64,000 nt of DNA from Microbacterium sp. M28 (GTDB lineage Bacteria; Actinomycetota; Actinomycetes; Actinomycetales; Microbacteriaceae): positions 2,418,001-2,482,000 of the forward strand of contig NZ_CP107546.1 in the NCBI RefSeq assembly GCF_025836995.1, read 5' to 3'. The notes beneath the pieces are model-generated. The model did no database searches. It was not told where the DNA came from and worked only from the letters and a program-made list of their open reading frames with translations. A program made the translations under genes and the position numbers. Numbering within the stretch: the first letter of the stretch is position 1; each line of letters opens with the position of its first letter. Shown here piece after piece: positions 43,371-54,745 of this stretch.

Positions 43371-43414
43371 ACGAAAAGGGCTCCGGATGCCGAGGCATCC
43401 GGAGCCCTTTTCGT
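43371..43414. terminator. Bidirectional terminator with a perfect 21-bp stem
   Basis: Arms 43371-43391 and 43394-43414 are perfectly complementary with GA between. The core is again GGATGCC-GA-GGCATCC, flanked by GGAGCCCTTTTCGT. The outer A/T runs provide a T tract for both strands, fitting the convergent livF and livK genes. Confidence 0.93.
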
Positions 43415-46221: not shown

Positions 46222-46248
46222 TTCGCACTCTCAACCCGAGAGTGCTAA
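46222..46248 (-). promoter_or_regulatory. CIRCE operator 1 (HrcA site) of groES
   Basis: On the minus strand TTAGCACTC, nine bases, then GAGTGCGAA. This matches the CIRCE consensus TTAGCACTC-N9-GAGTGCTAA with one mismatch. It lies just downstream of the -10 box, over the expected transcription start. Confidence 0.92.
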
Positions 46249-46294: not shown

Positions 46295-46340
46295 TGAGGC
46301 GTAACGCGCTGGGCGAACGCGTGCCGCGTAGGCTGAACCG

Positions 46341-47600
46341 GTGGAGATGACCGAGCTCGCCGCCCTGCTCACCCCGGACGGACTGGATCTGCTCGACGAC
46401 GTCGGGAGCATCGAGTCCACAACCGATGTGGCGAGAGTCGTCTCACGTCTGCGTGCCGCCGGCCACTCCCCCGAACTGGTCTCCGCCGTCGTCGGTCAGG
46501 CGAGGCTGCGCACCAAGGCCACCGCGAAGTTCGGCCCGTTCGCACAGCGGATGCTGTTCACGCAGGCAGGTCTCGAGCAGGCCACGCGTCTGGGCGTCGC
46601 GGCTCGGCACGCCGGGCGCATGCGGAACGCGGGGATCGCGCACGTGGCGGATCTCGGCTGCGGCATCGGCGGAGACGCGCTCGCGTTCGCGGGCGCCGGG
46701 CTGACCGTCACGGCCGTCGACGTCGATGAGGTCACGGCGGCGATCGCGGCGTACAACCTGGCGGCGTTCGGCGAGGATGCCTCCGTGTCGCACGGGACGG
46801 CGGAGGATGCGGTGAGCACGATCTTCGGAGATGTGCGCCATCTTCGGAGGTTCACCCCCGAAACGTCCGAAGACGACGCACATCTCCGCGGGAACAGCAC
46901 AGCGATCTGGATGGACCCGGCGCGCCGCACCTCCGGTCACAGCGAGACGCTGCGCGTGACGGCATCCGACTACTCCCCCTCGCTGGACTGGGCGTTCGAC
47001 GTGGCCACCCGCATCCCGACCGGCATCAAGCTCGGTCCGGGGCACGACAGGGACGCGCTCCCCGAGGATGCCGAGGCGCAATGGGTGAGCGCTGAGGGCA
47101 GCGTCGTCGAGCTCGTCGTCTGGACCGGCGCTCTGGCGCGGGAAGGCGTCCGCCGCGCCGCGCTCGTGATCCGCGGCGACGAGTCGCACGAGCTGACTGC
47201 GGGAGCCGATGCCGAGGATGCCGAGGTGCGCCCGCTCGGCGCCTTCGTCCACGAACCGGACGGCGCTGTCATCCGTGCCCGTCTGATCGGCGACGTCGCA
47301 CGGAGCCTCGACGCCGGGATGCTGGACGAGCACATCGCGTATCTCACGGGGGATGCCGCGGTCACCAGCCCGTTCGTGCAGTCGTTCCGCGTGCGCGAGT
47401 CGATGCCGGCGAACATCAAGGCGATCAACGCCGCCCTGCGCCGAGCCGACATCGGAACGCTGGAGATCAAGAAGCGCGGCATGGACATCGATCCGGCATC
47501 CTTCCGCCGCAAGCTGAAGCTGAGCGGGTCGCGGAGCGCGACGCTGATCCTCGCGCGGATCGGCGATCACCGGACGGCTGTGCTGGCCGATCGGGTCTGA
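46341..47600 (+). CDS. Class I SAM-dependent methyltransferase with THUMP-like C-terminal domain
   Basis: This protein of about 419 residues has a Rossmann methyltransferase fold with VADLGCGIGGDALAFAGAG as SAM-binding motif I (near residue 110). VTAVDVDEVTAAIAAYNLAA follows it, and MDPARRT at motif IV (near residue 193) is typical of this uncharacterised actinobacterial group. The C-terminal part from about residue 330 (ESMPANIKAINAALRRADIGTLEIKKRG) is the THUMP-like domain, suggesting an RNA substrate. Residues 162-183 are encoded by a palindromic element and look like an insertion before motif IV. GTG 46341 or ATG 46347 is the start. It ends six bases from the convergent membrane paralog gene. 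Confidence 0.88.
   Translation: MEMTELAALLTPDGLDLLDDVGSIESTTDVARVVSRLRAAGHSPELVSAVVGQARLRTKATAKFGPFAQRMLFTQAGLEQATRLGVAARHAGRMRNAGIAHVADLGCGIGGDALAFAGAGLTVTAVDVDEVTAAIAAYNLAAFGEDASVSHGTAEDAVSTIFGDVRHLRRFTPETSEDDAHLRGNSTAIWMDPARRTSGHSETLRVTASDYSPSLDWAFDVATRIPTGIKLGPGHDRDALPEDAEAQWVSAEGSVVELVVWTGALAREGVRRAALVIRGDESHELTAGADAEDAEVRPLGAFVHEPDGAVIRARLIGDVARSLDAGMLDEHIAYLTGDAAVTSPFVQSFRVRESMPANIKAINAALRRADIGTLEIKKRGMDIDPASFRRKLKLSGSRSATLILARIGDHRTAVLADRV
46826..46888. repeat. Intragenic palindrome (element B) inside the methyltransferase gene
   Basis: Arms 46826-46848 and 46866-46888 pair at 20 of 23 positions; the outer 12 pairs are perfect. The element lies in frame and encodes residues 162-183, between the SAM-binding half and the MDPARR motif. 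A palindrome of this length inside a coding region is unusual. Confidence 0.75.
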
Positions 47601-50319: not shown

Positions 50320-51389
50320 GCGGCGGCCTCCGCGCGCTCGGCGATCTGGATCTCGGTCACCGGCAGTGTCGAGTCGGCGCCGAAGGCCAGCGTGGACGGG
50401 CGTCGCCCGGACGAGATCAGCTCGGCCGCCAGCGCCGCGATCATGGCACCGTTGTCTGTGCACAGCGACAGCGGCGGGATGCGCACGGTCACGCCCGCAG
50501 CCTGCGCCCGTGTCAGCGCGACCTCGCGCAGGCGTCTGTTGGCGATGACGCCTCCGCCGAGCAGCAGACGGGGCACACCCAGATCCTGACACGCGGCGAG
50601 CGCCTTCGTCACGAGCACGTCGACGACCGCTTCGCGGAAGCTCGCGGCGACGTCCGCGACGGGAACCGGCGACCCTTCGGCCTCGCAGCGCTCGACCCAC
50701 CGTGCGACCGCGGTCTTGAGCCCGGAGAACGAGAAGTCGTACCGGTGCTTCGCCATGTCGGATGCCCGGGACAGCCCTCGGGGGAATCGGATGGCGTTCG
50801 GGTCGCCGTCCGCTGCCGCCCGGTCGATCTCCGGTCCGCCGGGGTACGGCAGCGACAGCAGCCGAGCGACCTTGTCGAACGCCTCCCCCGCCGCGTCGTC
50901 CATGGTCTCGCCGAGCAGCTCGACGTCCGTGGTCAGATCGCGCACATGCAGCAGCGACGTGTGGCCGCCGGACACGAGCAGCGCGATCGTCGGATACTCC
51001 AGCGGCTCGGCATCCGGGGTCAGGATGTCGGCCGCGATGTGCCCGACGAGATGGTTGACCGCATAGAGGGGCTTGTCGAGTGAGACGGCGAGGCCCTTCG
51101 CCGCGCCGACGCCCACCATGAGCGCGCCGGCGAGCCCTGGGCCCGACGTGACCGCGACCGCATCCAGATCCGCCAGGCTCACCCGAGCCTCGGCGAGTGC
51201 GGCCTCGATCGACGGCTGCAGCGCCTCGAGGTGCGCACGCGCCGCGACTTCGGGCACGACGCCTCCGTAACGGGCGTGCGCGTCCATGCTCGAGGCGATC
51301 GTGTTGGACAGCAGGGTCCGCCCGCGGACGATCCCGATCCCGGTCTCGTCGCAGCTCGTCTCGATGCCGAGCACCAGGGGTTCGCTCAT
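50316..51389 (-). CDS. tsaD: tRNA N6-threonylcarbamoyltransferase TsaD
   Basis: This 357-residue catalytic subunit transfers the threonylcarbamoyl group to A37 of ANN-decoding tRNAs. Kae1/TsaD signatures are present: [15 protein letters not shown] at the N terminus, [16 protein letters not shown], the metal-ligand pair in VNHLVGH near residue 111, [11 protein letters not shown], and [11 protein letters not shown]. It overlaps rimI by four bases and lies with tsaB and tsaE in one reverse-strand block; TsaC is not in this window. Confidence 0.97.
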
Positions 51390-51961
51390 GCCGTGGCCTC
51401 CTTCGCCGTCTGCGCGTCGCTCGATCCGGAGGAGATCACTCGATCCGGAGGAGCGATAGCGCCGTTCCGGTCCTCCGAATCGTGCGATGTCCTCCCGTTC
51501 GGGGGCTCCGTCTGCCACGCCCGCAGATCCAGCTTCATGACGATCGCGTCGACGCCGTCCGGCTGGTAGTAGCGCGGTCGACGGCCGAGCTCGGTGAACC
51601 CCTCCGAGAGGTAGAGCCCCTCCGCGCCCGGGTTGTCGGCGCGGACCTCGAGGAACACCTCGCGGTTGCCCCTGGCGGATGCTTCGGACAGCAGCGCCAC
51701 CAGGAGCGCACGCCCTCGTCCTGCGCCGCGGTGCGCGTCGAGCAGGGCGATCGTCTGGATGTCGGCATCCGACGCGCCGCGCACCGAGCGCAGTCCGGCG
51801 TACCCGACGACGCGGCCGTCCTGCTCGTCGACGAGATAATGGCTGTACTCGCCCGCGAGTTCGGCCGCCATCGTCTCGGCGCTCCACGCGTCGGTCGGGA
51901 AAGACGCGTGCTCGATCGCCATGATGGCCTCGAGGTCGTCCGATGTCGCTCGGCGGATCAT
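51386..51961 (-). CDS. rimI: Ribosomal protein S18-alanine N-acetyltransferase RimI with extended C terminus
   Basis: This 191-residue GNAT acetyltransferase shows [20 protein letters not shown] at the start, the acetyl-CoA loop [17 protein letters not shown] near residue 88, and [19 protein letters not shown] followed by [21 protein letters not shown]. RimI is usually about 150 residues. Here about 45 polar residues follow, and residues 154-180 are encoded by a long imperfect palindrome (51423-51500). The gene overlaps both tsaB and tsaD by four bases, the usual actinobacterial order. The substrate may be S18 or another protein N terminus. Confidence 0.94.
51423..51500. repeat. Intragenic palindrome (element E) in the rimI 3' extension
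   Basis: Over about 32 bp, left 51423-51454 and right 51469-51500 arms pair at roughly three quarters of positions. The best inner part is CGATCCGGAGGA (51441-51452) against TCCTCCGAATCG (51471-51482). The left arm also holds a 15-bp direct repeat, CTCGATCCGGAGGAG, at 51420-51434 and 51439-51453. It encodes the extra C-terminal residues of RimI. Confidence 0.7.
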
Positions 51962-54604: not shown

Positions 54605-54671
54605 CGATTCAGCCTACCCGGGCGCCGACACGCGGCACGGATGCCGACCGCGCCGTCGCACGAGAAGGGAG

Positions 54672-54730
54672 GCCGACACGCCAGTTGTCGGACGCTTCGG
54701 CGAAGAACGTCCGACATGTGGCGTGTCGGC
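54672..54730. repeat. Large intergenic palindrome (element C) between glmS and acpS
   Basis: Arms 54672-54698 and 54705-54730 pair over about 24 positions with two mismatches and one bulge, around a short loop. GTCGG/CCGAC motifs recur within it. It lies 16 bases past the glmS stop, so it may act as terminator, but it lacks a T tract. Its core (TCGGACG...AACGTCCGA) resembles that of element B. Confidence 0.7.
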
Positions 54731-54745
54731 CCCCGACACGATCAA

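Follow-up and report, generated by a model that had tools for sequence, protein, structure and literature searches.

A palindrome lying in frame within a Microbacterium methyltransferase gene is probably one copy of a dispersed REP/MITE-like element

Microbacterium sp. M28 carries, within a gene for a THUMP-like methyltransferase, an in-frame palindromic segment that is missing in many orthologues, belongs to a dispersed family with a four-box architecture and covarying arms, and has been gained or lost repeatedly at the same protein loop. We consider it likely that this segment represents a copy of a REP/MITE-like Microbacterium palindrome that is dispersed and non-autonomous and is carried in protein linkers as a tolerated passenger. 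The window referred to below is the whole 64,000-nt stretch of M28 DNA that was analysed, out of a genome of 3.37 Mb.

The palindrome and its four-box architecture

The features of the window that concern us are as follows, with the basis for each in brackets.
46341–47600, forward strand: methyltransferase gene with the insert, THUMP-like class I SAM type, 419 aa (ORF)
46814–46900, forward strand: full palindromic element, 87 nt or 29 codons, in frame (box layout, lag-19 identity, R2 match)
46826–46888, no strand: 63-nt core with 27-nt arms, 24/27 paired (inverted-repeat search)
46814–46829, forward strand: box 1, 13/16 identical to box 2 (box layout)
46833–46848, forward strand: box 2, 14/16 complementary to box 2' (box layout)
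46849–46865, no strand: loop, 17 nt (box layout)
46866–46881, reverse strand: box 2' (box layout)
46885–46900, reverse strand: box 1', complementary to box 1 at only 8/16 positions (box layout)
51386–51961, reverse strand: rimI, ribosomal protein S18-alanine N-acetyltransferase, with a palindromic tail (ORF, TIGR01575)
51418–51505, no strand: another palindrome of four boxes, 88 nt, at the 3' end of rimI (same four-box, 19-nt layout)

The 419-aa methyltransferase has a C-terminal Thump_like domain (Pfam PF18096, E value 5.5e-20), and the best PDB match of its predicted fold in Foldseek is the putative methyltransferase PG_1098 (3ll7, E value 9.5e-19). A preliminary description of this DNA had reported a long palindrome at 46826–46888 that encodes residues 162–183, in frame and ahead of the DPARR motif. 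The palindrome is real and the residues agree with the coordinates; the extent holds for the core, while the 19-nt box repeat set out below gives a whole element of 87 nt, not 63, at 46814–46900. An inverted-repeat search of 46300–47400 reported a sole pair, the arms 46826–46852 and 46862–46888 (27 nt, 89 % complementary, 9-nt loop). The RNA fold reaches −42.3 kcal/mol versus −22.9 ± 3.2 in 200 dinucleotide shuffles, none of which was as good (z −6.1). When synonymous codons were reshuffled 300 times with the protein kept, the best 27-nt arm match was 21 as against 24 in the real sequence; the palindrome is therefore no by-product of the protein sequence. The Rfam search, which covered 46300–47600, returned nothing above gathering score, just sub-threshold microRNA models.

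In the predicted structure, the insert lies between helix 154–162 and strand 187–191, and pLDDT falls to 67 and 52 within residues 161–180, with the DPARR loop behind likewise low. A helix-to-strand loop should face away from the active site on a Rossmann sheet, and the position of the insert would thus place it away from the active-site face.

Two other inverted repeats were seen nearby in the window. At 46222–46248, TTCGCACTC-N9-GAGTGCTAA, which we take to be a CIRCE-like motif, stands upstream of what is presumably a groES-like gene, and at 43371–43414 there is a perfect 21-nt inverted repeat with a 2-nt loop, terminator-like in form.

When each arm was compared with itself, identity peaked sharply at a single shift, 19 nt. 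As R1, a covariance model built from nine copies, holds CGGA twice at this distance, the lag test was redone on 12 positions outside R1 and set against the inner segments of other elements. Lag-19 identity was then 0.461 versus 0.28 permuted in 19 elements of the M28 genome and 0.436 versus 0.293 permuted in 24 elements from across the genus (0 of 500 permutations in either set), both arms of each element being taken, so that the arms are not independent observations. Outside R1, shifts of 18 and 20 were under expectation, and a shift of 21 was slightly above it among the genus elements (z 2.8). Not all elements carry a clear repeat: a match of at least 8/9 at lag 19 on one arm was present in 10/19 M28 and 16/24 genus elements. 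Since the identity extends across the start of R1 for 16 positions in all, each arm consists of two 16-nt boxes 3 nt apart, and the canonical layout of ~87 nt reads 16+3+16+17+16+3+16 (box-3-box-loop-box'-3-box').

The lag-19 identity runs 8–9 nt past the R1 model start, which extends the methyltransferase element to 46814–46900. This copy scores 75.5 bits with R2, a second model of 87 positions built from 32 of the 38 copies with an R1 span of exactly 70, the copy itself being among the 32. With only 8/16 positions complementary, its outermost boxes (1 and 1') have decayed. R1 spans of 69–71, equivalent to elements of 86–88 nt, were found in 13/19 M28 copies, 24/24 genus copies and 18/19 copies of genomes G106 and G041, and the box sequences vary from genome to genome.

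Symmetric pairing in 32 elements of 87 nt, over 35 positions per arm, amounted to 76.8 % standard pairs, a count that leans towards structure as the elements were gathered by a pairing-scoring model. Their covariation score was 0.386, compared with 0.172 ± 0.013 when partners were shuffled and at most 0.142 when the arms were slid; kinship can inflate such scores, and the slid control retains relatedness. In the 12 methyltransferase inserts, which are coding, both sides had changed in 11/22 pairs versus 5.6 ± 1.5 when shuffled; further pair types, one of five measures, numbered 15 versus 13.2, with shuffles as high in 99/500. As judged from these alignments, the arms covary and their pairing has been kept, a pattern that would fit equally well with selection for a hairpin needed by a mobilising enzyme and with hairpin-templated repair that rewrites one arm from the other.

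A family dispersed through Microbacterium

Other genomic copies, as anticipated in the preliminary description, are present both in M28 and across the genus. A DNA search with the element found further copies in the M28 genome, where R1 gave 31 strand-matches at E ≤ 10 in 20 distinct places; 19 places at E ≤ 1 were kept, including 13 at E ≤ 0.01, and one at E 3.9 was dropped (150 of 2750 candidates scored). The second case that had been put forward, in rimI, stood as a four-box palindrome of 88 nt inside an ORF, but one that codes for much of the C-terminal tail (TIGR01575 stops at residue 142/191), is placed a short way upstream of where tsaD begins (51389, minus strand) and reaches no more than 16.1 bits with R1 (E value 0.17). 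More divergent copies thus exist beyond the 19 places, since the rimI copy is outside the R1 list.

Matches to R1 at E ≤ 1e-6 were found in 75/198 Microbacterium genomes (25 candidates scored per genome). A family-wide search with R2 returned matches in 3/299 genomes and 1/85 genera, all of them Microbacterium, of which six genomes were sampled and three lacked a match; the filters were strict (14 candidates per genome), weak or divergent relatives could escape, and the M28 copies match R2 partly by construction. In this family-wide sample, the element is restricted to Microbacterium. Copies compared within five genomes have diverged from each other, save pairs such as those at loci L256 and L264, which gives little indication that the family has lately expanded in a burst. 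A search with a single G106 copy gave no phage match, and a plasmid carrier was rejected, the one match (35 nt, Haloterrigena plasmid) being taken as chance.

A long palindrome of another kind (‘type B’, of the GGCCGACACGCCA type; 27-nt arms, 89 %) occupies 54668–54734 of the window, between what we take to be an acpS-like gene and glmS, and could be a terminator-like repeat. Type B recurs in the M28 genome (L052, L056, L062 and L066) and shows no 19-nt repeat; it is not counted in the four-box class, although these four sit among the 19 places.

Turnover at protein linkers and rival explanations

We read 158 orthologous methyltransferase loci from A-[AV]-[YF]-N-x-A-x-[FY] to [WF]-x-D-P-A-R-R; two were without the motifs and the remainder yielded 126 distinct loop sequences (among named loci that hold an orthologue, 75/80 have Microbacterium in the title). 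Loop length is bimodal, with 20–33 residues in 104/126 loops, 39 in one, 46–51 in 18 and 67–72 in three, although these counts are not population frequencies, as the choice of loci partly favoured close relatives and long frames. The segment had been suspected to be absent from orthologues, and in this sample, enriched for long loops, 104/126 are indeed short. The R1 family accounts for 17/22 loops of at least 39 aa, namely six among the nine model builders, ten found by search and L116, which has an N run and was assigned through its close relative L037; the other five are of other kinds.

Two loops of the 67–72-residue class, those of L098 (M. murale) and L186 (genome G253), contain a second in-frame insert with SLSERSETK-like residues just upstream of the palindrome; such peptides are frequent in actinobacterial proteins. 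Locus L150, on a 4138-base contig of Stenotrophomonas maltophilia P13, carries a Microbacterium-like methyltransferase gene and is probably contamination of the Stenotrophomonas assembly.

In a tree computed from the 126 proteins after removal of the loop, 22 rows carry the long-loop label, which required 11 changes, at least eight of them on well-supported branches. On a tree of 60 rows (16 R1-type rows and 44 of the 104 empties, with the broken row L182 and the five other-kind inserts left out), the R1-type label required seven changes, at least five of them forced by well-supported branches, and a single clade was rejected (p-AU 6.7e-58). The changes may be gains or losses.

Methyltransferase loops are one of several sites. 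The ThDP-dependent enzyme of M28 has an in-frame copy (34.6 bits) in the linker between its Pfam domains M (central) and C (C-terminal), and 27 of 29 orthologous linkers could be read (G181 and G351 were missed, G181 being seen in another alignment). Seven are short (G115, G063, G074, G114, G013, G191 and G050) and 20 long, several with palindromes that differ by eye: CTCGCA in M28, CGGA in G253, G319, G095, G106 and G068, and GAGAAACC in G146 and G004. The GAGAAACC-type palindromes, which were found by position and not by R1, show the 19-nt repeat with 9/9 matches; in the other types (G041, G005, G001, G172, G224 and G123), it is not clear. The linker of L301 (G142) has a compared stretch of 150 residues versus 58 in empties, with repeated CATCCGAAGC units, and gives the impression of a palindromic repeat that has undergone tandem multiplication within the gene. 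Additional in-frame copies lie in a GT4 glycosyltransferase (G009), a DUF1980/TIGR03943 protein (G064) and, in G106, an ABC-F-like ATPase (a fragment, with Pfam ABC_tran above and ABC-F models below cut-off) and an open frame that resembles a membrane protein by eye.

Genome G041 is close to G106, with clean flank pieces 93–97 % identical. Its ThDP and ABC-F-like linkers hold a CAACTCCGGAG-type palindrome, different from those of G106 at the same linkers, and the membrane-protein-like loop that is filled in G106 is 108 nt (36 codons) shorter in G041. Of all the signs of mobility in the sequences, turnover of this kind at fixed linkers is the strongest. A clean target-site duplication was seen at neither of two filled/shorter site pairs, as the flanks beside the element are themselves altered (118 nt versus 10, and 256 versus 13, the filled side of the latter being two tandem copies).

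The reading frame of the element differs between the methyltransferase (FGDVRHLRR...) and the ThDP enzyme (LRRSARSSEES...), which argues that the encoded peptide is probably neutral, and the length of 87 bp, being 29 codons, makes in-frame tolerance easy. Elements have 5.0 of 6 frames open compared with 2.9 in shuffles; however, flanking windows already have 4.47 of 6, and peptide-level adaptation is therefore not claimed.

One alternative is that a single ancestral insertion in the methyltransferase gene was followed only by decay and deletion, the family being an old relic in which nothing moves. Part of the methyltransferase pattern may indeed reflect an old insertion plus losses, since insert position and reading phase are nearly the same in all carriers; the loop of G004 resembles a partly deleted copy, and the divergence of most copies inside a genome is consistent with age. 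Yet the relic account would need near-complete in-frame loss to recur, and it is at odds with the at least five forced changes in the R1-type tree, with close relatives that differ (G208 filled and M. commune empty, at a fork with support 98) and with the different palindromes of G106 and G041 in two shared linkers. We consider it unlikely as an account of the whole.

Placement bears on a second alternative, in which the palindromes form hairpins that are functional in RNA or DNA (terminators, attenuators, mRNA-stability or nucleoid-protein sites) and under structural selection, the in-gene copies being exaptations. Using a home-made gene finder, whose counts are approximate, we placed two of the 19 M28 copies in genes, 11 between tandem, four between convergent and two between divergent genes; the 24 best-of-genome genus copies comprised two in genes, nine tandem, ten convergent, two divergent and one undecided, so that most classified copies are intergenic. 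The 38 intergenic sites of these sets (17 in M28, 21 in the genus) amount to 20 tandem, 14 convergent and four divergent, a distribution like that given for REPs in the passages of PMC3733652 drawn on here, and this, together with the strong covariation of the arms, is what functional hairpins would lead one to expect. The convergent excess is not seen, however, at 14 sites from copy-rich genomes, two of which repeat genus-set sites (one in a gene, nine tandem, two convergent and two divergent). Inside the methyltransferase or the ThDP gene, a terminator would do harm; whether a particular gene has a copy changes between close species, the boxes vary in sequence among genomes, and Rfam yielded no match above gathering score in 46300–47600. 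On this evidence, functional hairpins are distinctly improbable as the general explanation.

A DUF559 (Vsr-like) nuclease was tested as the mover of the element and dropped, as very improbable, because eight of nine DUF559 places lack a copy nearby. The candidate was suggested by two copies that flank a DUF559 gene at L227 (about 1891739–1892873) of the M28 genome, upstream of what we take by eye to be ileS, and by what appears, by eye, to be the same arrangement around L256 and L264 of G106. The latter is the orthologous locus by its neighbours and hence not independent, G114 has three copies with a different-looking gene of 214 aa between two of them, and of the nine DUF559 places in M28 (five over the Pfam cut-off), the other eight showed no copy in the fetched surroundings. 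Finally, ordinary low-complexity loop expansion with DNA that folds by chance we count as refuted: the loop is variable anyway, and the long loops of L208 (a tandem duplication) and L135 resemble repeats or low complexity, but 300 synonymous-codon shuffles never exceeded 21 against 24 and the same DNA family lies elsewhere in the genome.

The preferred reading thus remains a dispersed palindrome that would have spread, and probably still undergoes slow turnover, in the manner of REPs or MITEs. Movement would depend on an enzyme able to recognise the boxes, and copies within genes would persist if they preserve the frame and fall in a flexible surface linker of the host protein; in the methyltransferase, that linker would be the loop between helix and strand that precedes the DPARR motif. 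The encoded peptide would have no role of its own. As to the enzyme, the transposase search was confined to the Y1_Tnp family (PF01797), which is absent from the M28 genome and from 30/30 genomes (16 copy-rich and 14 without a strong match) and present in 5/14 control genomes; a RAYT/Y1 transposase was accordingly rejected as partner.

More tentatively, it is possible that these elements form a class of mobile palindrome set by architecture rather than sequence, with four boxes of ~16 bp that recur at a constant period of 19 nt, box sequences that vary between genomes and subfamilies, and a non-Y1 transposase or recombinase of drifting DNA specificity that reads them. The length of 87 bp (29 codons) would then make in-frame insertion the default, and linkers would be recurrent landing sites at which one type replaces another between close species. 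The two-box arm with its 19-nt period is a concrete lead to the missing enzyme.

Relation to known palindromic elements

In-frame palindromes are best known as a Rickettsia oddity, and a free-living actinobacterial genus now offers the same role. It makes testable what moves such palindromes, how proteins tolerate ~29 foreign codons and whether DNA repeats have contributed to the linkers of publicly deposited proteins, and it alerts annotators and modellers to loops of this kind as possible passengers at the DNA level. The supposition that elements of this sort had not been described in this group agrees with the open-access literature, the scope of our search (subscription papers lay outside it), where the best-ranked matches listed contain no description for Microbacterium or other Microbacteriaceae.

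The closest parallel in behaviour is the Rickettsia palindromic element (RPE), to which the preliminary description had likened the insert. As described in the relevant parts of PMC10969869 and PMC2229807, RPEs are palindromic repeats of several families, 105–146 or about 150 bp long, that lie in frame in unrelated protein genes and also between genes, and whose encoded peptide is conserved. The Microbacterium element is likewise a palindromic stem-loop in frame in protein genes. The similarity of behaviour holds, but membership does not: at 87 nt, the element falls outside 105–150 bp, it is read in at least two frames with no single conserved peptide or frame, and it belongs to an actinobacterial genus, has four 16-nt boxes with a 19-nt period, is mostly intergenic and varies in its boxes, all of which set it apart from the RPE as characterised in those parts. 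The term protein-coding insertion, as originally applied, suits the in-frame copy in the methyltransferase; the family, however, is mostly intergenic, and palindromes in ORFs have been reported beyond Rickettsia too, in the portion of PMC3733652 relied on here.

The same portion describes REPs as dispersed units of 20–40 bp with a GTAG or CGTC tag, the GTAG ones often near RAYT (Y1) transposases, that occur mainly between convergent or unidirectional genes, are often oppositely oriented and in several species lie within some ORFs (PMC3733652). The recB genes of two Xanthomonas species hold different REPs at about the same site (PMC3733652), and the main text of that paper mentions neither Actinobacteria nor Microbacterium. 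Like the REPs so described, the Microbacterium element is a short dispersed palindrome, mostly intergenic and sometimes in ORFs; unlike them, it measures 87 nt, its alignment and consensus contain no GTAG or CGTC tag, and its genomes (30/30 searched) lack the Y1 family.

MITEs such as Correia/NEMIS, ERIC and RUP are, in the pertinent sections of PMC10969869 and PMC2229807, short elements of non-coding origin with terminal inverted repeats and occasional in-frame fusions. The Microbacterium element shares the terminal inverted repeats, the shortness, the non-autonomy, the non-coding origin and the occasional fusion in frame and differs from MITEs, on that account, in the 19-nt direct repeat inside each arm. 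What is new, on our best reading, is a protein-coding palindrome in Microbacterium that is probably distinct in sequence from the RPEs of Rickettsia, of a kind already familiar from these and from REPs in ORFs.
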